Of a stretch of 64,000 bases of DNA, positions 9,377-37,728 are shown in pieces; the stretch's first letter is position 1, and each line of letters opens with the position of its first letter. The position numbers and the translations under genes are program-made. Source of the stretch: Alphaproteobacteria bacterium (GTDB lineage: Bacteria > Pseudomonadota > Alphaproteobacteria > SMXP01); contig JANQPV010000020.1 of NCBI GenBank assembly GCA_028285305.1, forward strand, positions 62,001-126,000. The letters are read 5' to 3'. The notes below the pieces were generated by a model, which saw only the letters and a list, made by a program, of their open reading frames with translations, was not told where the DNA came from and searched no databases.

Positions 9377-10411
9377 ATGAAACTCACGATCGCGATTGGC
9401 GGATACGCCAGAGACGACATCAAAGCACAGGCCGATTTTGTCGTCGCGGCAGAGAAACTGGGCGTTGATTGCGTGTGGTCCGCCGAGGCGTGGGGGCAGG
9501 ACGCGATCACCAGCCTCGCCTATATGGCCGCGCTCACAGAGAAAATTCATCTGGGTACGGGCATTATGCAAATCAGTGCAAGGGCTCCCTCGATGACGGC
9601 GATGACGGCATTGTCCATGCACAATTTGTCGAATGGGCGGTTTCGCCTAGGATTGGGAGCGAGCGGCCCGCAAGTTGTCGAAGGGTTGCACGGCGCCGCC
9701 TACAAGGCCCCACTCAGCCGCCTCAAAGAACATGTTGAGATCTGCCGCATGGCCTTTGCCGGCGAAAAACTCCGATATGACGGCGCCTTCCACCGGCTGC
9801 CTCGGCCGGGCGGCGAAGGTAAGGCGATCCGTCTGGACCACGAACCGGCCGACATTCCGATTTATCTTGCAACGCTCGGCCCCAAATCGCTGGAATATAC
9901 GGGAGCGGCCGCTGACGGGTGGCTCGGAACATCGTTCTCGCCGGAACATGCAGACGCCCATTTGGACCATATCAAGGCCGGAGCAGAAGCGGCAGGGCGC
10001 TCAGTCTCCGACATCAACATCAACGTCGCACTGGCAGTGGCCATCGGAGACAATGTCGAGGAGATCATCGAGGCGCGCCGGGGCGGTGTTGCCTTCCAGA
10101 TGGGAGGAATGGGCTCGGCGCAAACAAACTTTTATAATGATGCCTTTAAGCGTGCTGGGTATGAAGACGATGCGCGTGCGATCCAGTCTCTTTGGATAGA
10201 GGGGAAGCGCAAGGAAGCGGCCGAGCGGGTGCCCGATTCCATGATCACGGAATTCCAAGCAGTGGGTACTCGTCAGATGGTACTGGAGCGGATTAAAAAG
10301 CACCAAGATGTCGGCGTCGACAGTCTAACGCTTCGCCTCGACGGCAAAACCGTCGCGGACCGACTCACGCTGTTGGAACAGGTTAGCGATATCGTAAAGG
10401 GGCTCGACTAA
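9377..10411 (+). CDS. LLM class F420-type oxidoreductase
   Basis: Luciferase-like TIM-barrel oxidoreductase, 344 residues, of the F420-dependent LLM group. The frame is open from 9326, but ATG 9377 has AAGAGGAGC eight bases upstream and starts MKLTIAIGGYARDD as in the family. Blocks seen: GTGIMQISARAP at about 76-87, FRLGLGASGPQVVEG at about 108-122, and YLATLGPKSLEYTG and DGWLGTSF in the second half. Such enzymes carry hydride transfer with F420 or FMN; which cofactor is used here cannot be decided from sequence. The stop lies inside a hairpin arm (10399-10426). Confidence 0.88.
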   Translation: MKLTIAIGGYARDDIKAQADFVVAAEKLGVDCVWSAEAWGQDAITSLAYMAALTEKIHLGTGIMQISARAPSMTAMTALSMHNLSNGRFRLGLGASGPQVVEGLHGAAYKAPLSRLKEHVEICRMAFAGEKLRYDGAFHRLPRPGGEGKAIRLDHEPADIPIYLATLGPKSLEYTGAAADGWLGTSFSPEHADAHLDHIKAGAEAAGRSVSDININVALAVAIGDNVEEIIEARRGGVAFQMGGMGSAQTNFYNDAFKRAGYEDDARAIQSLWIEGKRKEAAERVPDSMITEFQAVGTRQMVLERIKKHQDVGVDSLTLRLDGKTVADRLTLLEQVSDIVKGLD

Positions 10412-10589
10412 TTTCAGTTTAGCCCCACCTGGAGCGTTTCCCGGTGTGAGCTTGAGACTCGATTGATCGAGGATCAATCGACCAAGCGGACGGGATCGTT
10501 CGGCGCGAATGCGCCTCACCACCGCCCGGAAACGCGCAAAACAAAGATTCTGGAGCCGTTTTGTGTTTCCTAAAAAACTAAAACGGCTC
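10399..10589. repeat. region of stacked inverted repeats between convergent genes
   Basis: Four inverted repeats follow one another: GGGGCT/AGCCCC (10399-10404, 10421-10426); GCGTTTCC-cGGTG with CACCG-ccc-GGAAACGC (10434-10446, 10520-10535), which encloses the tight hairpin CGATTGATC-gag-GATCAATCG (10460-10480); and GAGCCGTTTT/AAAACGGCTC (10553-10562, 10580-10589). The first overlaps the LLM stop codon and the last the ABC-F stop codon. It may be a two-way termination region or a structured RNA. None of the stems has a long T run, so ordinary rho-independent termination is not clear. Confidence 0.6.
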
Positions 10590-28634: not shown

Positions 28635-29117
28635 TCACACCTCTTTCAGTTTCTTCCAGGCGCCCCAGGCGAGTAGGCCGAACGCAATGTGAACGGCGAT
28701 CACAGGAGGCCATCCGCTGACGTAGATAACGTTGTTGATCCATCCGCCAGGGAACGGTCCACCATCAAAAGTGAGGCCGCGGGTGCCTGCTAAGGCATTT
28801 GCAATGGCTGGCAAGGTGAAGAGCCAGGCGGTCACGAGCAAAGACCAAAAAAGCCAGAGAAATTGGCGCGCGGACAAAGAGAGAATTGGCGCGATGGCCG
28901 CCACCCCGATGAGGAGGAGGCCGTTGGTGATGCCCTCCAAATGGGCCATGTTCCACGCCCGCCCCTCGCCCGGTACTTGGAAGTCAATCGACGGCACGAC
29001 CGGCCAGAGAACAATCTCGCCCAGTAGCATGAACATATAGAACCAGCCGGTGATGATCGCCGATATCAAAAGGCCAGCGCCGTTGAGGACAAGCAGCACG
29101 CGATGTTTTTCGGTCAT
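28635..29117 (-). CDS. small membrane protein resembling styrene-oxide isomerase
   Basis: 160-residue protein with four hydrophobic helices (about 8-30, 64-82, 86-108, 134-152). It matches what I recall of styrene-oxide isomerase (StyC): similar length, a VPG-x-W block before helix 2 (FQVPGEGRAW), then His59 and Asn65 in AHLEGITNG, the His-x5-Asn spacing of the haem-b ligand His and the active-site Asn, and RGLTF at 113-117 where StyC has RGLTFGP. Such enzymes convert epoxides to aldehydes by a Meinwald rearrangement. It is 50 bases downstream of the LLM oxidoreductase gene in the same direction. Epoxide isomerase activity is inference; a haem-binding membrane protein of other function is possible. 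Confidence 0.65.
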   Translation of the reverse strand: MTEKHRVLLVLNGAGLLISAIITGWFYMFMLLGEIVLWPVVPSIDFQVPGEGRAWNMAHLEGITNGLLLIGVAAIAPILSLSARQFLWLFWSLLVTAWLFTLPAIANALAGTRGLTFDGGPFPGGWINNVIYVSGWPPVIAVHIAFGLLAWGAWKKLKEV

Positions 29118-29167
29118 CGATATCCTCCCGTTCGATGTGCGCCTGCCATAGTTCTGGGTTGGTTGGA

Positions 29168-29923
29168 TTAGTCAACCAGCTTTCGCACTTCGGCGGGAGT
29201 AGGTCCGCCGGGCAAGATGATGACCACCGCATCGTCGAAGCCGGCCCCGGCATAACGGGACAAATCCTCCTTAAGTTTGCCCAGATCCGTTTCCCTGCTG
29301 ACATTGATCGTCGAAACGAGGGAGCGGGTGCCCCCTGCCGCGCGGAACGTCTTCGCCGTTTCGACAACTTCGTCGACGGGCTTGTAAGCGCCGGAGGCGA
29401 TCCAGCCATCATACTCTTTTGCGGCCTTCTCAACGCCGTTCCCCCATGTGCCGAAAAAGAAAGGTGGGCCTCCCTGAACATGGGGCCAGGGACTGAGATC
29501 CGTGGCGCCCCGTTTGCCTGTTTTCAGTGCCTCGCGCAGCTCCGCAATCGTCTCCCGGTAAGCTCCGAACCGACCCGCATAGTCCCGGTCCAAGGTCAAG
29601 AAATCCTTTTCCGTGGACCCCGCGCCGACGCCAATGATCAGTCGGTCACCGCATATTTGCTGAAGAGAAAAAATCCGGTGGGCCAAGTCCATTGGGTGAT
29701 AGAGCGTGACCTGCAATATGGCGGTCCCCAAAGGTACTTCCTCAGTGACAGTTGCCGCAACCGTTAACATCATGAGGGGGTCGGGCAAGAAGAATCCCCT
29801 TCCGATCGCTTGCGGTACCCAAAGACTTTCGAACCCTTCGCCCACATACATTTTGGATTGTTCGCCAATAGCCCGTGGATTGGCGGGATCGGCGATTGCT
29901 CCGATGATGGCTCCAAGTCTCAT
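29168..29923 (-). CDS. LLM class F420-type oxidoreductase / monooxygenase
   Basis: 251-residue luciferase-like TIM-barrel protein, on the short side for the family. MRLGAIIGAIADPANP forms the first strand, FESLWVPQAIGRG and TEEVPLGTAILQVTLYHP the following blocks, and RLIIGVGAGSTEKDF the flavin/F420 phosphate region. The C-terminal part has FFFGTWGNGVEKAAKEYDGW. It overlaps the upstream crotonase gene by four bases, so both are made together. It could add oxygen to, or reduce, the CoA ester handled by that protein. Which cofactor is used cannot be told. Confidence 0.88.
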   Translation of the reverse strand: MRLGAIIGAIADPANPRAIGEQSKMYVGEGFESLWVPQAIGRGFFLPDPLMMLTVAATVTEEVPLGTAILQVTLYHPMDLAHRIFSLQQICGDRLIIGVGAGSTEKDFLTLDRDYAGRFGAYRETIAELREALKTGKRGATDLSPWPHVQGGPPFFFGTWGNGVEKAAKEYDGWIASGAYKPVDEVVETAKTFRAAGGTRSLVSTINVSRETDLGKLKEDLSRYAGAGFDDAVVIILPGGPTPAEVRKLVD

Positions 29924-30669
29924 TTTTCTTCTTCCTCTTGCTGATTAAACCTAGTCTCGATCACCCGATCTTCGGGCAAAGGCCGGCTGAGAAATTGCCC
30001 GAGCTTCACTTCTTTCAAAGCCGCTTCGCGGCTTGCATCGTCGTCTGGGACGTTTTGGATGACATATTTCGCGGTATCAAGGGCCCCTTGGTCAAAGCCA
30101 GCGATGCGTTTTGCCAGTCTCATTGCTTCATTTCGGCACTCTCCCGGTGCGGAAACACGATTAATGAGGCCGAGAGACGCGGCCCGTTCGGGCGAGATGG
30201 GCAGTCCGGTCAGCGCCATTTCGGCGACCACCTTCTTGGGGATAGAAAGGTGCAGCATAGCGGCAGCCACGCCGCCGTAAATTCCGTGGGTAATCTGAGG
30301 AAGCGCAAAGGTGGCGGTGGGTTCAGCAATAGCTAAATCACAGGCCGAGGCGAGCGTAATCCCGGCGCCGACCACCGGCCCGTTGAGCGCCGCAATGAAA
30401 ATGGTGTTGCAATTATAGAGCTGCTTGAAGAATGACCACTGATCCTTGCCTTCACCATGACCGACCGGCTCCTTGAGATCCATTCCCGCACAGAAGGATG
30501 GTCCGGCTCCGGTGATGACAGCAACCTTGATACTGTCCAACCGGCTGTCCAATACTTCTTTGAATTCTGACCGGAGCACGCGATTGAGGGCATTGCGCTG
30601 ATCTGGGCGATTGAGAGTGATTGTCGCGATCGCGTCTTCAGATTGAAATTGCAAGTAATCGAAGGTCAC
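29920..30669 (-). CDS. enoyl-CoA hydratase/isomerase family protein, atypical active site
   Basis: 249-residue crotonase-fold protein. The oxyanion-hole blocks are present: SFCAGMDLKE (58-67) and GPVVGAGITLASACDLAIA (98-116). The two glutamates of classic hydratases are not: the site in GGGCELA is Thr105 (GAGITLA), and the site in PEIxLG is Gln125 (LPQITHG). So plain hydration is unlikely; isomerase, hydrolase or lyase chemistry on a CoA ester fits better. It overlaps the LLM gene by four bases and follows the MFS gene by 33 bases. The C-terminus is a run of Glu. Confidence 0.85.
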   Translation of the reverse strand: MTFDYLQFQSEDAIATITLNRPDQRNALNRVLRSEFKEVLDSRLDSIKVAVITGAGPSFCAGMDLKEPVGHGEGKDQWSFFKQLYNCNTIFIAALNGPVVGAGITLASACDLAIAEPTATFALPQITHGIYGGVAAAMLHLSIPKKVVAEMALTGLPISPERAASLGLINRVSAPGECRNEAMRLAKRIAGFDQGALDTAKYVIQNVPDDDASREAALKEVKLGQFLSRPLPEDRVIETRFNQQEEEEK

Positions 30670-30702
30670 GTTGTCTCTCTCACCGGTGCTTAATCAACGA
30701 CG

Positions 30703-32013
30703 TCAAGATAAGGCTCCAGACGCTGTTTGGGCCTCGGTTATGTCTCTTCGCACGCTGAACGATGCCCACCAGAACATGGCTGCGGCAATGAAATAGGTGG
30801 ACGTTGTTAACAGGATTGCCTTGGTCAACCCCTCTCCTGGAACGCCGGTATCAAAAAAATCGCTCAATTGACCGATGAGCGCGCCGCCAAGTCCATAGCC
30901 GACGAAACTCAATGCCATGGTTTTTGTGGCGGAGGCTACGCCGCGCATTTGAACGGGCGCTGTGCTTTGAATCAGGCTGTTTGTGATCGCAAGCATGGAA
31001 TTGCCGCAGATGATTGCCATCGTGAAGAAGACGAGGGATATGACATAGTCACCGCTCATGATCGCTAAAAAGGAAAACGGGAACGCGATGAGCTGGGATC
31101 CGGCAAGGATCCACGTGTACCAGCGGACATCTCGCTCTGATAGGCGGTCGGCCAGATAGGCCGCACCTACGAGGCTCAGCAGACCCGCTATCCCCATAAT
31201 CGGTCCCACTGTGGTGCCAACTTGTCCGGCCGTGAGTTCGAACTTGCGCATGTAGAAGCTGGGAATCCACTGGACGATCCCATACGCGCCAATCGATTTA
31301 AAGGCAGAGCCGATGACGATCAACATAAAGGTCTTTGTGCCGATTAAATGACGCATTGACTCTGAAAAGCTGACTCGCCGAATCTGCTTGATGCCGTCCG
31401 CCTGACCGCGCTCGGGCGCGCGAACGGTCAAATACAGGACCGCTGCCAAGACGAGCCCCGGCAAGCCAAAGAGAATAAATGTCCAGCGCCAGCCAAACGC
31501 ATCGGCGATGATGCCGCCCAGAAAAAGGGATAGCATCAGCCCGATCGGGATGCCGGCGCTACACACGGCGATCGCCGTCGCGCGTCGCTTCAGGGGGTAT
31601 TTGTCCGAAATAAGAGAATAGGTTGTGGGCGTCACGCCGGCCTCCCCCAGAGCCACGCCCATCCGGGCAATGAGGAGTTGGGTAAAGTTTGACACCAGTC
31701 CTGCTGCGGCGGTCATCGCACTCCAAAACGATAAACAGGCCACCAGAACTGTTTTGCGCGGAATGCGGTCAGCCAGGCGGCCGATCGGAATGGCGAAGAT
31801 GGCATTCGTCAAACCGAATGCGAGTGCCAGATACCCCAATTGGCTATCCGTCAAGCTTAGGTCAAGCTTGATGTCCTCTTGGACGATGGAAAGGACTTGA
31901 CGGTCCAAGAAGTTCATCACCGACACAACAAAGAGCAGCGCGAGCATGTACGTGCCCGACTCGCTTTGCCTGATAAAGCCTAAGTTGCCGGCCGGTCGGT
32001 CGCTGACACTCAT
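30703..32013 (-). CDS. MFS transporter
   Basis: 436-residue major facilitator with twelve predicted helices. MNFLDRQVLSIVQEDIKLDL at helix 1, GRLADRIPRKTVLV between helices 2 and 3 (motif A) and GVALGEAGVTPTTYSLISD at helix 4 are typical of the group of anionic and organic-acid carriers that includes many in lipid and steroid degraders (spinster-like). The frame is open to 32046, but GGGAGG lies six bases before ATG 32013. It sits between the two crotonase genes in the same direction, so uptake of the substrate of this pathway is likely. Confidence 0.9.
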   Translation of the reverse strand: MSVSDRPAGNLGFIRQSESGTYMLALLFVVSVMNFLDRQVLSIVQEDIKLDLSLTDSQLGYLALAFGLTNAIFAIPIGRLADRIPRKTVLVACLSFWSAMTAAAGLVSNFTQLLIARMGVALGEAGVTPTTYSLISDKYPLKRRATAIAVCSAGIPIGLMLSLFLGGIIADAFGWRWTFILFGLPGLVLAAVLYLTVRAPERGQADGIKQIRRVSFSESMRHLIGTKTFMLIVIGSAFKSIGAYGIVQWIPSFYMRKFELTAGQVGTTVGPIMGIAGLLSLVGAAYLADRLSERDVRWYTWILAGSQLIAFPFSFLAIMSGDYVISLVFFTMAIICGNSMLAITNSLIQSTAPVQMRGVASATKTMALSFVGYGLGGALIGQLSDFFDTGVPGEGLTKAILLTTSTYFIAAAMFWWASFSVRRDITEAQTASGALS

Positions 32014-32109
32014 AGTGGTCCTCCCTGGCGCCGCTGATATTGACATGCGGCTTTTGGGGGAGCTTATCCATTTGGGATGCGTTTGGCAGGCGAGGACTGG
32101 TCCAAGGCT

Positions 32110-32130
32110 TAATCATCACATACGTGATTA
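32110..32130. promoter_or_regulatory. inverted repeat upstream of the MFS gene
   Basis: TAATCA (32110-32115) and TGATTA (32125-32130) form an inverted repeat with a nine-base spacer in the 124-base gap between the upstream crotonase and the MFS gene. It could be an operator for the downstream half of the cluster. Short, so modest support. Confidence 0.35.
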
Positions 32131-32137
32131 GCTCTTG

Positions 32138-32932
32138 TTACTTACCTCGGAATTTGGGTTCGCGTTTCTCGACAAAGGCCGCAACCCCTTCTTTCACATC
32201 GTCGGTTTCAACGCAGATGTTTTGGGCATAGGTCTCGAATTCTAGAGCTTCTCTGAGACCTGGTTCCATGTTTCGGTAGATCGCCCGCTTGGACAGGCGG
32301 ATTGCTATGGGCGGGCCGGCGGCAAAGCTCATGGCCATTTCTATGGCGCGGGGTAGAAGATTCTCCGGCTTTGTCAGCTCGGAGACAATGCCCATATCCA
32401 CCGCCTCTTGGGCTTCGATCATTCGGCCTGACCAGATAAGCTCGGCCGCTTTGGCGGTGCCGACCAACATGGGCAGGAAGTAGGTCCCGCCCCAATCGGG
32501 GTGCAGCCCCCGCCGGGAAAACGTTAGCCCCACCCGCGCCGTGTCAGCGGCAAGACGGATATCGCAGGCGAAAGCAATGCCTAATCCGCCGCCCGCCGCC
32601 GGACCGTTGATGGCGGCTATATAGGGTTTTGCCGCGCCCCGCATAGCGAGAATGATTTGATCGCGGATAGGCGAAATTTTGTCTGAAGACGGATTCATTT
32701 TTTCCCGTTGTTTGGGATCGTTTAGCGCCTTCATGTCGCCGCCGGAGCAGAAGGCCTTTCCGGCGCCGGTGATGATTACCGCTCGGACATCGTCGTTCTC
32801 ATTGCTGTGCAGAACCGCGTTGAGCAAGTTTTGACGGACCTTGCCGTTGAGGGCGTTGTAGCGTTCCGGCCGGTTGAGAGTGATGGTCGCGACGTTGTCC
32901 GTGATGTCGTAAAGGATATGTTCGAAGTCCAT
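32138..32932 (-). CDS. enoyl-CoA isomerase-like protein (PaaG type)
   Basis: 264-residue crotonase-fold protein close to the PaaG/PaaB kind. FCSGGDMKAL (61-70) and GPAAGGGLGIAFACDIRLA (110-128) form the oxyanion hole. The hydratase glutamates are absent; instead GLHPDWGGTYFLP (142-154) carries Asp146, the acid used by PaaG, which converts ring-epoxide CoA esters to oxepins or shifts double bonds. That likeness comes from memory of PaaG's IPDxGG block. It follows the small VOC gene by three bases. A 124-base gap separates it from the MFS gene. Confidence 0.87.
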   Translation of the reverse strand: MDFEHILYDITDNVATITLNRPERYNALNGKVRQNLLNAVLHSNENDDVRAVIITGAGKAFCSGGDMKALNDPKQREKMNPSSDKISPIRDQIILAMRGAAKPYIAAINGPAAGGGLGIAFACDIRLAADTARVGLTFSRRGLHPDWGGTYFLPMLVGTAKAAELIWSGRMIEAQEAVDMGIVSELTKPENLLPRAIEMAMSFAAGPPIAIRLSKRAIYRNMEPGLREALEFETYAQNICVETDDVKEGVAAFVEKREPKFRGK

Positions 32933-32935
32933 GAC

Positions 32936-33304
32936 TCACTCTATCCGTTCGCAAAAAATAAGTCGGTTGCCGTTCGGGTCGTCGATCGTCATGTCGCGCC
33001 AGCCCCACTCTTGGTCTAGATAGCCGGGCCGGGCGTGTTTGTAATTCTTGGCATTGAGCGCCTGGCAATAACCGGCTACATCATCGATTTCGATACGGAC
33101 GGATGACCCCGGAGACGCATCGCCGAAATGTTCCGATAAATGCAATTCACACTCGCCGAGCTTTACTCCCATATAGAGGGGCGTCCCGGGCTCAAATCGA
33201 AACTCGAAATCGATCTCGAAGCCCAGAAAATCGATGTAAAAGGCGCGGGTCGCGTCTTCGTTGAAACTGCGAAAGATAGGAATGGGCGGCTTGGCGTTCG
33301 TCAT
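32936..33304 (-). CDS. VOC family (glyoxalase-fold) protein
   Basis: 122-residue single VOC domain of the bleomycin-resistance/glyoxalase group: IPIFRSFNEDATRAFYIDFLGFEID start, ECELHLSEHFGD in the middle, and MTIDDPNGNRLIFCERIE at the end with the typical PxGxxxxF block and terminal Glu. The frame is open to 33349; ATG 33304 with GGAGA upstream gives the family start. It is the first gene of the cluster, three bases before the PaaG-like gene. In the bleomycin-resistance group such proteins bind a drug without catalysis, so it may sequester an intermediate. Confidence 0.85.
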   Translation of the reverse strand: MTNAKPPIPIFRSFNEDATRAFYIDFLGFEIDFEFRFEPGTPLYMGVKLGECELHLSEHFGDASPGSSVRIEIDDVAGYCQALNAKNYKHARPGYLDQEWGWRDMTIDDPNGNRLIFCERIE

Positions 33305-33506
33305 CGGCGGTCTCCGTGAGAAAATGAAGTGCTCCTCCCCATCAGACAATTCTGAGCATCGCTTGTCGAGTGGTTTGTTGCGGCTCGCCTTACTTTTTGG
33401 CGACTGATCCTTGCGCCGATTAATTAATTAGAGTTGCGACAATCGGATTGATCGCATATCGGCGAGGGGATAAAGTCGTGAGCATTTTCCCCGAGGAGCC
33501 GCCAAG

Positions 33507-34874
33507 ATGAGCACCGCCGATCCAGAAAGTTCAGCCAATCCGCGTCTCCAGCGAGATCCACCCGGATGGTTGCGAGTGTTGACGTCGAAAATCGGCAGCC
33601 GACACATCGATCCCTCTGTACGGCAAAAGCGGCGCACCAAGTTCGAGGCCAATCGGCACCGGAAGGGCGAGCCTCACAGGGTCGAGTATTTTCACCAACT
33701 GGATGATCCCTACTCCCATCTGGCCGCGCAGACGCTAAAGCCGCTCATAGAGCGGTATGATATTGAGCTGGTTCCTCACTTGATCCGTGCTACCGGAGGC
33801 ATCAGTCAGCCGGAGATGGAAAAGCTCGCCGTATGGGCCCGGCGCGATGCAGAACTTATCGCGCCCCACTATGGTCTGTCGTTTTCCGGCAATGTGCCAA
33901 CCGTACCAGAAGCGAACCATGCGGCGACAGCTGCGCGAGCCTTGGCGGAATTGGATGCAGAAGGGTTCGTACACGCTGCACCTGAACTCACTGACGCCCT
34001 TTGGCGCGGAGACTGCGATGCACTTAAGGCGTCCAACCGAAATTTGGCATCACAAGAAGACGCAGATCGCGTTTTGACTGAAGGCTCAGAGCGTTTGCAC
34101 AAGCTGGGGCATTATTCCGGCGCCATGTTCTATTATGGCGGCGAATGGTATTGGGGGGCGGACCGGCTTCTGCACTTGGAAAAGCGCTTGCGGGACTTGG
34201 GCGCTTGCAAGGCTTCCGATGAGCCATTCATTGTGCCGCGGCCGGATATCGATGTGAGCGGTGTTGATGCGAGCGCCCTAGAGCTCCACTTTTATCCATC
34301 TCTAAACTCTCCGTATACAGCCGTCATCTACGATAAAACTGTCGAACTCGCCAAGGCTTGCAACATTCGGTTCTATCACAAACCCGTTTTACCGATGATC
34401 ATGCGCGGTGTTCCTGCACCTATGAATAAGATGCAGTACATCGTCTTCGACGCGCACCGGGAAGCTGAACTCTTAGGCGTGCCGTTCGGGCCTATGTGTA
34501 CACCTATTGGAGAACCCACGCGCCGACTCTACTCTCTCTTTGCCTGGGCCCGAGAACAAGGGAAGGAAGAAGCTCTTCTCAGTTCCGGCCTTAGGCACGC
34601 CTTTGCCATGGGCGTTGGGCTGCATACGGATAAGGGTATGCGGCAAGTTGTGGAGGCGGCCGGTCTTGATTGGTCTCGAGATTCTTCTCTCATTGGGAAT
34701 GACGGCTGGAAAACCGTTACCCGTCAATACCAAGATGAAATGATTGATGGGCTGGGGCTCTGGGGAGTTCCCAGCTTCCGGCTGTCGGGGCCCGAGGGGG
34801 AGCCGGACCTGGCCGTTTGGGGACAAGACCGACTATGGCTGGTCGCGGCCGAGATCAAGCGGCGCGCGCACTAG
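33507..34874 (+). CDS. tandem DsbA-like (HCCA isomerase/kappa-GST) protein
   Basis: 455-residue protein with two consecutive thioredoxin-fold DsbA-type domains. The first runs from about 57 (EYFHQLDDPYSHLAAQTLKP) to 235, the second from about 257 (LELHFYPSLNSPYTAVIYDK) to 450, each opening with the F-x5-(S/D)PY signature of 2-hydroxychromene-2-carboxylate isomerase and kappa GSTs. No CxxC is seen, so disulfide exchange is unlikely; glutathione-dependent isomerisation of a ring-cleavage product is the known chemistry of the group. The second ends with GLWGVPSFRLSG, the usual cis-Pro block. Start ATG follows GAGGAG. A basic tail precedes domain 1. Monocistronic. Confidence 0.8.
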   Translation: MSTADPESSANPRLQRDPPGWLRVLTSKIGSRHIDPSVRQKRRTKFEANRHRKGEPHRVEYFHQLDDPYSHLAAQTLKPLIERYDIELVPHLIRATGGISQPEMEKLAVWARRDAELIAPHYGLSFSGNVPTVPEANHAATAARALAELDAEGFVHAAPELTDALWRGDCDALKASNRNLASQEDADRVLTEGSERLHKLGHYSGAMFYYGGEWYWGADRLLHLEKRLRDLGACKASDEPFIVPRPDIDVSGVDASALELHFYPSLNSPYTAVIYDKTVELAKACNIRFYHKPVLPMIMRGVPAPMNKMQYIVFDAHREAELLGVPFGPMCTPIGEPTRRLYSLFAWAREQGKEEALLSSGLRHAFAMGVGLHTDKGMRQVVEAAGLDWSRDSSLIGNDGWKTVTRQYQDEMIDGLGLWGVPSFRLSGPEGEPDLAVWGQDRLWLVAAEIKRRAH

Positions 34875-34939
34875 GCTCGCACAGTGCGGCGAACCGGTTG
34901 GCTGATTATCCCCAACACGGTGTCCCCGCCTGACCGAAC

Positions 34940-35494
34940 CTATGCTTTCGCGCTTTGCCAGAACTTCAGCATTCGCCCGGTGGAACCGTCGCGCGCAATA
35001 ATGAGATGGTAGAGCGCGGCTAGGATATGGATTCCGATCAGTATAATAATGGCTTCAGTAATGTACTCATGTATCGTACGTACGGTGAGGAACACCTCTT
35101 CGTTTCCAACACCATCCCCGAAGGCAAACAAGCCGAATGGGTTCACTATCGAATTCGCGTTCATCGCGCTCAACATGCCCGTCGCAATCATGCTACCAAT
35201 GAGTAGATAGAGCCCCACGTGGGCCGCATGGGCGGCAAATTTTTGCCACCCCGGCATCGTGTCGGGCAAAGGCGGCGCGCCATATCTTAAGCGCAGCAAT
35301 ATTCTTAGCACGAATAGTACTGTGACTATGATGCCGATCTGAGCATGGTCGATGCGGGATTCAAAGCGGTCAGCATCTTCCATAATGCCTCCGAATTTCT
35401 GTGCGACATTCAAATCCAGCATGATCAGAATCGCCATCAGCCAGTGGACAACTTTTTGCGCGATCTGATAATCCACTCGTGTGTTCGCTGCCAT
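34940..35494 (-). CDS. cytochrome b561 family protein
   Basis: 184-residue di-haem b561-type membrane protein with four helices (about 14-30, 50-68, 86-110, 142-166). Candidate haem ligands His17 (VVHWLM), His50 (IDHAQIG), His92 and His156 match the usual pairs. It begins YQIAQKVVHWLMA, the family start. Such proteins pass electrons from quinol to a periplasmic partner. It is the last gene of the operon SDR, AhpD-like protein, cytochrome b561 (36 bases after the AhpD gene). GGGAGG precedes the start. Confidence 0.9.
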   Translation of the reverse strand: MAANTRVDYQIAQKVVHWLMAILIMLDLNVAQKFGGIMEDADRFESRIDHAQIGIIVTVLFVLRILLRLRYGAPPLPDTMPGWQKFAAHAAHVGLYLLIGSMIATGMLSAMNANSIVNPFGLFAFGDGVGNEEVFLTVRTIHEYITEAIIILIGIHILAALYHLIIARDGSTGRMLKFWQSAKA

Positions 35495-35530
35495 GTGCGC
35501 CTCCCTTAAACTGTCCGTTTCTCTTGTTTT

Positions 35531-36082
35531 CTAGAGTTTGGGCGCCTCGGCGCGCTGCTCGTGCTCTAAACCTTCGTGTTTTCCGATACTCCAACCTATC
35601 CCCGACAAATGCGTCTGCGCCCAATCGCGCGCCTCCTGATCCGTGACGGTGGCGAGCGTGTCATTGTAGCGGTTCATAAATCCTCCAAGTGCGCACACAG
35701 AAATAAGTGTACGGACTTCTTCATCGCTGAAATGCTCGCGTAGAGCGGAATGGTGTTCCGGCATGACGGCGTTTGGCGTGGCACCCGCGGCTAAGCCGAG
35801 TGCAAGCGCGGCTCGTTCCTTCGGGTCAAAGAGCTCGGATCGTTCGAAATTCCATAGAGCCCGGATCTTCTCAACAGGTACACCGATTTTGTCGAGACCA
35901 TAGGCTCCGTGCGCCTGACAATGGCGACAGCCCGACGCGAGACTGGAAATTGTGAACGTCATCATATTGATCTCAATCCCCGGCGGCGCCGTGAATATCA
36001 TGATCTGTAGCTCTTTCAGCTTGCCGTACATTTCAGGCCAGGCGCCCAAGTCCCAGTTTTGACGATCCATGTATTCGGTCAT
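35531..36082 (-). CDS. carboxymuconolactone decarboxylase/AhpD-like protein
   Basis: 183-residue alpha-helical protein of the AhpD/peroxidase-related family. The redox block SGCRHCQAHGAYG gives Cys52, Cys55 and His58, the CxxCxxxH pattern of alkyl-hydroperoxidase AhpD, so unlike the fused CMD domain at 14715 it should be redox active. The frame is open to 36118, but ATG 36082 follows GAGAAG with a good distance. It lies 38 bases after the SDR and before the cytochrome b561, suggesting a redox or peroxide-relief role linked to the membrane. Ends in TAG. Confidence 0.88.
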   Translation of the reverse strand: MTEYMDRQNWDLGAWPEMYGKLKELQIMIFTAPPGIEINMMTFTISSLASGCRHCQAHGAYGLDKIGVPVEKIRALWNFERSELFDPKERAALALGLAAGATPNAVMPEHHSALREHFSDEEVRTLISVCALGGFMNRYNDTLATVTDQEARDWAQTHLSGIGWSIGKHEGLEHEQRAEAPKL

Positions 36083-36120
36083 TTTTACTTCTCTAAGAGT
36101 TGTGAAATCCGGCGTCACTC

Positions 36121-36948
36121 TTAAGTATCGTTTCCGGCTTCGTAGCGCTCCGCAATCTGCGCGCCGAGCTTTGCCCCCATCTCAAACAGTTGGTCCGGGT
36201 TCGAGTGGCGCAATTTGGCCAGATCCAGTTCCTGGCCTTGCGCATAGATCAGCTCAGGAACGTTTTGCTTCACTGCCTCTAGAATAGCGCGAGCGCAATC
36301 GGCCGGGTCGTCCCCACCGTCGATGTTTGCGTCGGACTTGCCGCGGCTTGTCCCATCTTTGGTCAGCGCATTGCGCGAGACATTGGTGGCGACGGAGCCC
36401 GGGAGAATATTCGTCACTTGGATGTTATGGCGCACCGACACTTCGGTCCGAAGCGCATCCATGTAGCCAATCAGTCCGTGTTTGGCCGCCGAGTAAGCGG
36501 TGCGAAGCGGCGCCCCCAGACGTCCGGCTACGGAGCTGATTGCGATAATGTGGGCACCGCCAGCCTCGACCATTTTCGGCAACTGCAGTTGGGTAAGCCA
36601 AATGGGGGCGATGAGATCGATGTTGATCAGATCAGTATAGACTTGGGGATCGGTGTGGATGGCCAAGCTGCGCTGGCTGACGCCTGCATTGTTAACGAAA
36701 ATGTCCACCTTGTCCTTCCACGACCAAGCCTCGTCCACTTTTGCGGCCAATTGACCGTAATCCGTAACCTCAAAAGGCAAAACCAAAGACTCTGTAGCAA
36801 GACTATTTGCTACGTCCTGTAATGCTTCAACCCGGCGACCGGATAAGATGATCCGGGCCCCCGCTTTCGAAAACGCGTCGGCGAGCGCCTCTCCAATTCC
36901 GGACGATGCGCCGGTTATCCACACAATCTTGTCCTGAAAATCTCCCAT
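36121..36948 (-). CDS. SDR family oxidoreductase
   Basis: 275-residue short-chain dehydrogenase. TGASSGIG at 12-19 binds the cofactor, NNAG at 86-89, Ser139 and YSAAK (152-156) form the active site, and SGRR after strand 2 favours NADP(H). It looks like the DHRS7/retinol-type branch (ISSVAGRLGAPLRTAYSAAK). First gene of the operon controlled by the divergent TetR, whose operator lies 106 bases upstream. Reduction of a ketone or a lipid aldehyde is plausible. Confidence 0.92.
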   Translation of the reverse strand: MGDFQDKIVWITGASSGIGEALADAFSKAGARIILSGRRVEALQDVANSLATESLVLPFEVTDYGQLAAKVDEAWSWKDKVDIFVNNAGVSQRSLAIHTDPQVYTDLINIDLIAPIWLTQLQLPKMVEAGGAHIIAISSVAGRLGAPLRTAYSAAKHGLIGYMDALRTEVSVRHNIQVTNILPGSVATNVSRNALTKDGTSRGKSDANIDGGDDPADCARAILEAVKQNVPELIYAQGQELDLAKLRHSNPDQLFEMGAKLGAQIAERYEAGNDT

Positions 36949-37053
36949 CGCGCGCTCCTGTTCTCCGGCGGCCTTACTTCCAGATCAGCTCGCCTTCGTC
37001 CCCTGGCGAAAACCACCGGCTTCCTAATATGTCGCTTGACTTACTTAATTATC

Positions 37054-37079
37054 TTATTTACGTCAAGTGACGTGAATAA
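37054..37079. promoter_or_regulatory. TetR operator, 26-base near-perfect palindrome
   Basis: TTATT-t-ACGTCA (37054-37065), AG, TGACGT-g-AATAA (37068-37079): twelve-base arms with one mismatch. Outer strings TTATTTAC and GTGAATAA match the outer TTATTCAC and GTGAATAA of the operator at 16606, with a spacer of ten instead of seven bases. It covers the TetR start codon GTG 37072 and the probable -35 TTGACT lies at 37036. Confidence 0.78.
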
Positions 37080-37728
37080 TAATTCTCCAGGCAAGGTCTC
37101 ATCAACGACCCGTAAACGAGCTCCTCAACAGCGCGCGGAAGAAACACGAAGGGCACTCCTCCAAACAGCGGTCGAGATGTTTACCACGCTCGGCTTTGAC
37201 GGCGTTTCGATCCGGGCGCTCGAAGTCGCAGCCGATGTTCAACGCGGTGCGGTTTCCTATCACTTCGAAGACAAGGCGACACTTTGGAAAGCGGCAGTCG
37301 AGCACATCCTGCAAAACTATTCCAAGCATCTGGGACCGCTTGAAGCCGTCCTCTCCGATCTCGACGAAGAGTCCCGCTTGCGCGTGGTGATCACCGCGTT
37401 CGTTCGCTTTAGCGCTGAGACGCCCGAGCTCAACCGGCTTATCATTCAAGAGGGACGGCACGATACATGGCGGTTGCATTATCTGATCAACACTTTCATC
37501 CGCGACAGGTTTGGCTGGCTGCAAGACAGTTTGGAACTGCTTAACGATCCTCATGCCTATTATATGGCGATTGGGGCCGCGACCTTGGTGTTCGATGTGG
37601 AGCATGAGTGCCGCGAGCTCTTTGGTGTTGAACCAAAGTCAGATGAATTCATAAAAGAGCATGCAGAACGGGTTGCCGACTTTGTCATCTACATGCGGAA
37701 GAAAGAGCTGGAAGTCTCTACCGACTAA
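37072..37728 (+). CDS. TetR family transcriptional regulator
   Basis: 218-residue TetR repressor, paralogue of the one at 16639. HTH: VSIRALEVAADVQRGAVSYHFEDKATLW at about residues 44-70 (shown here by its ends VSIRALEV and DKATLW), C-terminal domain with ELNRLIIQEGRH like the other's ELFRFMMEEGK. The open frame begins at a TTG (37036) that is really the -35 element; GTG 37072 inside the operator is the best start, which would make the mRNA nearly leaderless. Divergent from the SDR/AhpD/b561 operon, which it probably represses together with itself. Confidence 0.88.
   Translation: MNNNSPGKVSSTTRKRAPQQRAEETRRALLQTAVEMFTTLGFDGVSIRALEVAADVQRGAVSYHFEDKATLWKAAVEHILQNYSKHLGPLEAVLSDLDEESRLRVVITAFVRFSAETPELNRLIIQEGRHDTWRLHYLINTFIRDRFGWLQDSLELLNDPHAYYMAIGAATLVFDVEHECRELFGVEPKSDEFIKEHAERVADFVIYMRKKELEVSTD

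Follow-up and report, generated by a model that had tools for sequence, protein, structure and literature searches.

The described enzyme closest to the protein considered here is styrene oxide isomerase (StyC, or SOI), which acts after StyA and was described in 2024 as dependent on haem and unique in structure. In the SOI of Pseudomonas sp. VLB120 (PDB 8pnu; NCBIfam model NF045734), H58 is the ligand of ferric haem b, and activity is abolished by the mutations N99A and Y103A and impaired by N64A and D95A (PMC11374702). The haem ligand of the Rhodococcus opacus enzyme is H57, and its R111 probably holds a propionate (PMC12502698). In a search of the open-access literature, no paper was found that treats SOI-like homologues beyond styrene metabolism.

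The window, a stretch of 64,000 nucleotides from an alphaproteobacterial genome, carries on its minus strand, at 28635-32932, five open reading frames, all of which were confirmed at the place and on the strand given by the original prediction. In the direction of transcription they encode a crotonase-fold protein with Asp146 in HPDWGG, the isomerase or PaaG-type position (ECH1; 32138..32932), an MFS transporter (30703..32046), a second crotonase-fold protein without the hydratase glutamates, as had been predicted (ECH2; 29920..30669), an LLM-class flavin/F420 oxidoreductase of 251 aa (LLM; 29168..29923) and a membrane protein of 160 aa and four helices from the styrene oxide isomerase superfamily (SOIL; 28635..29117). 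The first four match crotonase, MFS, crotonase and Bac_luciferase families, respectively (Pfam/NCBIfam). A glyoxalase-superfamily gene (32936..33349, minus strand), lying 3 bases before ECH1, is probably the first gene of the run, which continues with spacings of 91 bases from ECH1 to MFS and 33 from MFS to ECH2, the expected 4-base overlap of ECH2 and LLM, and 50 bases from LLM to SOIL; another 431 bases separate SOIL from the next gene. An operon of glyoxalase-ECH1-MFS-ECH2-LLM-SOIL is plausible, and promoter and terminator scans of the run gave signals no better than those of shuffled sequences. A scan of the ten proteins encoded from 25.3 to 35.5 kb of the window found neither styA/styB nor an aldehyde dehydrogenase; SOIL differs from StyC in having no StyA/StyB beside it.

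No Pfam family matches SOIL. Its likeness to StyC, noted in the original prediction, is far above chance: NF045734 matches with an E-value of 4.4e-14 (52.8 bits, which does not reach the curated cut-off of 150 bits), and phmmer relates SOIL to the two solved SOI sequences at 4.6e-7 and 4.6e-5. An AlphaFold2 model of the monomer without haem, made from an alignment of 55 relatives, consists of four long helices with a mean pLDDT of 94.5 and recovers the SOI fold, 8pnu being its single significant Foldseek match (E 1.2e-5, TM 0.80). In VIA-align the model and 8pnu superpose over 154 residues (21% identity, Z 16.8), well ahead of the next row at Z 11.2; similarities to haem-copper oxidases and to MAPEG proteins, at VIA Z 7-11, were set aside as insufficient for a helical bundle. 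The four-helix fold is thus shared over the full length at 21-22% identity. In a tree, the subfamily of SOIL (hereafter B-type) is a branch apart from the true StyC proteins, with which nine Tyr-containing homologues cluster, including a second copy on contig C5 of the source genome.

The haem site is kept while the catalytic site of StyC is not. Aligned with the VLB120 enzyme, SOIL has H59 at the position of H58, N65 at N64 and R113 at R112, and the two features noted in the original prediction are present as H59-x5-N65 and as RGLTF at 113-117, the latter corresponding to the RGL(T)F of StyC including the propionate Arg. The axial haem ligand position (H59) and the propionate Arg position (R113; R111/R112 in the two SOIs) are conserved in 87/87 B-type proteins, and the Asn of the H-x5-N motif is variable (N in 47, Q in 28 and H in 12 of the 87). 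Since the SOI fold, the haem ligand His and the propionate Arg are retained, SOIL is likely, as judged from sequence and model, to be a haem-b protein. In contrast, D95, N99 and Y103 of StyC are replaced by T96, F100 and A104, and equivalents of these three residues are missing from nearly all of the 87 B-type proteins. SOIL has instead gained E61 and N128, both invariant among the 87, and H143, present in 84 of them and missing from Tyr-type homologues. With the Tyr, Asn and Asp of StyC gone, the chemistry of that enzyme is therefore not simply transferable to SOIL, and Meinwald chemistry on the SOIL haem is unproven because A, F and T stand where StyC needs Y103, N99 and D95. The catalytic residues and the NF045734 cut-off rule out that SOIL is StyC; it is a member of a separate, widespread and undescribed subfamily of the SOI family.

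To place SOIL in its genomic context, 84,980 species genomes were scanned; this gave 98 encoded relatives, from which 80 loci were kept, spread over alpha- and gammaproteobacteria, some Acidobacteriota and Thermoanaerobaculia, and bins labelled Deltaproteobacteria/Myxococcota. In 69 of these 80 loci, one genome per species and counted irrespective of kinship, SOIL is directly adjoined by a gene of the PF10118 'metal hydrolase' family. All 69 pairs are co-directional and many have 4-base overlaps, and no further PF10118 gene occurs in 1.34 Mb of flanks. The PF10118 gene lies upstream of SOIL in 34 and downstream in 32 of the 66 pairs with clean ORF starts, a placement on either side which partly answers the question of shared ancestry. 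A joint action of the two proteins is supported by this adjacency, by the common strand, by the either-side arrangement and by the overlaps. No description of the pairing was found in the open-access literature. The family is also paired with Tyr-type SOI homologues (L021, L023 of the source genome, and L025) and with a homologue having neither the Tyr nor H143 (L020). Among the 11 loci without PF10118, two of which are on contigs shorter than 8 kb, four (L037, L042, L057, L106) carry a flavoprotein with two dinucleotide folds beside SOIL, as if oxygenases had been swapped; no oxygenase is recognised next to SOIL in about seven loci.

Several individual loci add to this picture. Tandem SOIL duplicates follow a single PF10118 gene in L019 and L088. 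In Nevskia (L043:1641-10818) a SOIL gene without PF10118 is followed by two acyl-CoA dehydrogenases, a crotonase and a CoA ligase-like gene, together with a ferredoxin-reductase fusion and an alpha/beta hydrolase. In Zhongshania sp. BJYM1 (L106:3378-3881 and 10001-10492), a gene of StyC type lies near one for an aldehyde dehydrogenase, with a B-type SOIL gene 6 kb away. A plasmid gene of Rhodococcus opacus 1CP annotated styC (L151:4438-6459) is preceded by a nitric oxide synthase oxygenase gene and not by styrene genes.

The usual partner, PF10118 (Metal_hydrol/COG3687), is annotated as a predicted metal-dependent hydrolase, and no description of its function was found in the open-access literature. 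Its invariant ligand set is E50, E80xxH83, E133 and E169xxH172, and the order E, ExxH, E, ExxH is the ligand pattern of ferritin-like diiron enzymes. The structure modelled from the PF10118 protein of L027 (pLDDT 94.2) has a ferritin-like helical fold, and in VIA all top rows are diiron-type proteins, with CmlI at Z 12.8 and R2, methane monooxygenase and AurF at Z 11-12. The overall fold and the E/ExxH/E/ExxH spacing are thereby shared with the CmlI/AurF N-oxygenases, R2, R2lox and soluble methane monooxygenase, although the relation is distant (about 10% identity). The Foldseek E-value of 0.03 is below significance, and the assignment to the diiron family therefore rests on fold and ligands. 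Labelled a hydrolase, the protein resembles a diiron oxygenase in its conserved ligands and fold, and is probably one as far as sequence and model can tell.

Although it is the usual neighbour of SOIL elsewhere, PF10118 is unlinked to SOIL in the source genome, which has three genes of the family, on contigs C4, C5 and C28. The C28 protein is closest to the partners in L034 (66%) and L030 (62%), and in these two loci SOIL shares 70% and 66% identity, respectively, with the window protein; the probable partner of SOIL is therefore present but unlinked. The C5 gene lies beside the second SOI homologue (G000:C5:285689-286927; L023:9563-11062), which retains the catalytic Tyr and Asn and is located 24 bases before the PF10118 gene; this Tyr-type homologue is a better candidate than the window gene for real SOI chemistry. 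In the window itself, DsbA-like, cytochrome b561, SDR and TetR genes at 33507-37728 have counterparts of 61-77% identity in another genome (G124), where a Tyr-type SOI-PF10118 pair (L025) lies no more than about 8 kb away from them.

The original prediction read the five genes as one route, in which LLM makes an epoxide that SOIL and a PaaG-like crotonase rearrange. That the genes are closely spaced and co-directional, with 50 bases between LLM and SOIL, speaks for such a route, as does the fact that SOIL homologues do adjoin oxygenase-like genes and, in the Nevskia locus, directly precede acyl-CoA dehydrogenase, crotonase and CoA-ligase genes. However, the LLM/ECH/MFS set is found beside SOIL in none of the 80 related loci, the outcome named beforehand as refuting, and the cluster is ruled out as a conserved unit; isolated ECH or MFS genes near SOIL relatives are of low identity and often on the opposite strand. 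Moreover, contig C68 carries, in a span of under 20 kb and without a SOIL gene, paralogues of ECH1 (68%), MFS (74%), LLM (58%) and ECH2 (73%), and none of the loci L146-L150, which contain LLM homologues, has a SOIL gene beside them (nine LLM matches were obtained at a cut-off of 1e-20 in 385 genomes of the class). Most parsimoniously, SOIL either joined a run of genes for CoA-ester catabolism or was left behind next to it. Nor is LLM supported as the epoxide-forming oxygenase: its best profile is an F420 subfamily, with a score below the cut-off, and it may be an F420 oxidoreductase because genes for F420 biosynthesis are present. CofE and CofD matches lie about 100 bases apart on C5, which by sequence indicate F420 synthesis in the source organism; the CofD family also matches genomes without F420, whereas the CofE family matched archaeal controls only. 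As for the crotonase, Asp146 is confirmed and the hydratase glutamates are absent, G and F occupying their positions (located by visual comparison with known hydratase motifs), and ECH1 thus shares with PaaG, the 1,2-epoxyphenylacetyl-CoA isomerase, the crotonase fold and the single Asp in PDxGG. The label 'PaaG-like' nevertheless depends on that one Asp, and PaaG itself is ruled out by its model TIGR02280 (192.6 bits against a cut-off of 345), several generic crotonase models scoring higher. In the source genome, 95% complete, a search for PaaABCE found no canonical PaaA and PaaC pair to supply the PaaG substrate and gave one partial PF05138 match (PaaA/BoxB-like, on C68). The PaaA/BoxB-like diiron protein of C68, the contig with the paralogues of the window crotonases, MFS and LLM, is encoded at G000:C68:14735-15199 (L155:841-2031) beside another LLM gene. 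Of the original prediction, then, the likely haem-b protein of SOI fold survives in its fold, His and Arg, while the single five-gene pathway, its gene set absent from all 80 loci and its four enzyme types present on C68 without SOIL, is improbable; the idea of an oxygenase working with an SOI-like protein finds no support with LLM in that role and is revived with PF10118 as the partner.

Even with PF10118 as partner, SOIL need not be a catalyst. It may be a cytochrome b-like electron-transfer protein, its haem ligated by H59 and H143 from both sides, through which the quinone pool or a reductase supplies electrons to PF10118, the diiron protein being the sole catalyst. Diiron oxygenases need electrons, the catalytic Tyr of StyC is lost in SOIL, and the second conserved His, found in 84/87 B-type and in no Tyr-type proteins, could render the haem six-coordinate and non-catalytic. 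H59, A104 and H143 each sit some 6-8 residues in from a helix end on the periplasmic face, and would be at comparable depths towards the periplasm when helix position is combined with the published SOI topology, in which both termini are cytosolic. PF10118 is, however, also paired with the H143-less homologues of L020, L021, L023 and L025, and the pairing is therefore independent of the second His; in addition, some members without PF10118 adjoin a flavoprotein that could draw electrons from NAD(P)H directly. An electron-transfer role is judged unlikely. So, and slightly more doubtful, is a structural, sensing or haem-handling role of a haem-binding membrane protein engaged in neither epoxide nor oxygenase chemistry. 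The absence of the StyC catalytic network and several solitary copies, such as that beside tatC in L079, would agree with it, but both the strictly kept polar residues E61, N128 and H143 around the haem and the tight coupling, in either gene order, to a diiron protein suggest a shared reaction and argue against it.

Against these alternatives we give an even chance to the reading that SOIL is one half of an undescribed two-gene system composed of a diiron oxygenase and a membrane haem protein. From homology, residue conservation and gene pairing we infer a joint action, substrate and reaction along the following lines. SOIL, a four-helix protein of SOI fold from a distinct subfamily, would bind haem b in the inner membrane, and the diiron PF10118 protein would oxygenate a membrane-soluble substrate, the conversion of an alkene to an epoxide being the simplest guess. 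SOIL may then bind the product at its ferric haem and rearrange it, as StyC does after StyA. That epoxide rearrangement is the actual chemistry of this diiron/haem system is offered tentatively, at clearly less than even confidence. In the fuller proposal, which is equally tentative, the pair is widespread and its substrate a membrane-borne lipid or hydrocarbon; after epoxidation by the ferritin-like diiron protein, the product would be rearranged by the haem protein, of SOI fold but with a remodelled active site, and the window would represent a split copy. In the source genome the pair would be divided, SOIL ending a CoA-ester catabolic run, an unusual context for it, and the closest B-type PF10118 gene residing on C28.

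The B-type proteins form a large subfamily that shares the haem seat of StyC but has a different active site and is genetically tied to a probable diiron oxygenase that is filed as a 'hydrolase', and they should not be annotated as StyC. If the proposal is true, it would provide a function for two families at once, the SOIL subfamily and PF10118, and the pair offers a direct test case of whether SOI-type haem catalysis reaches beyond styrene oxide.
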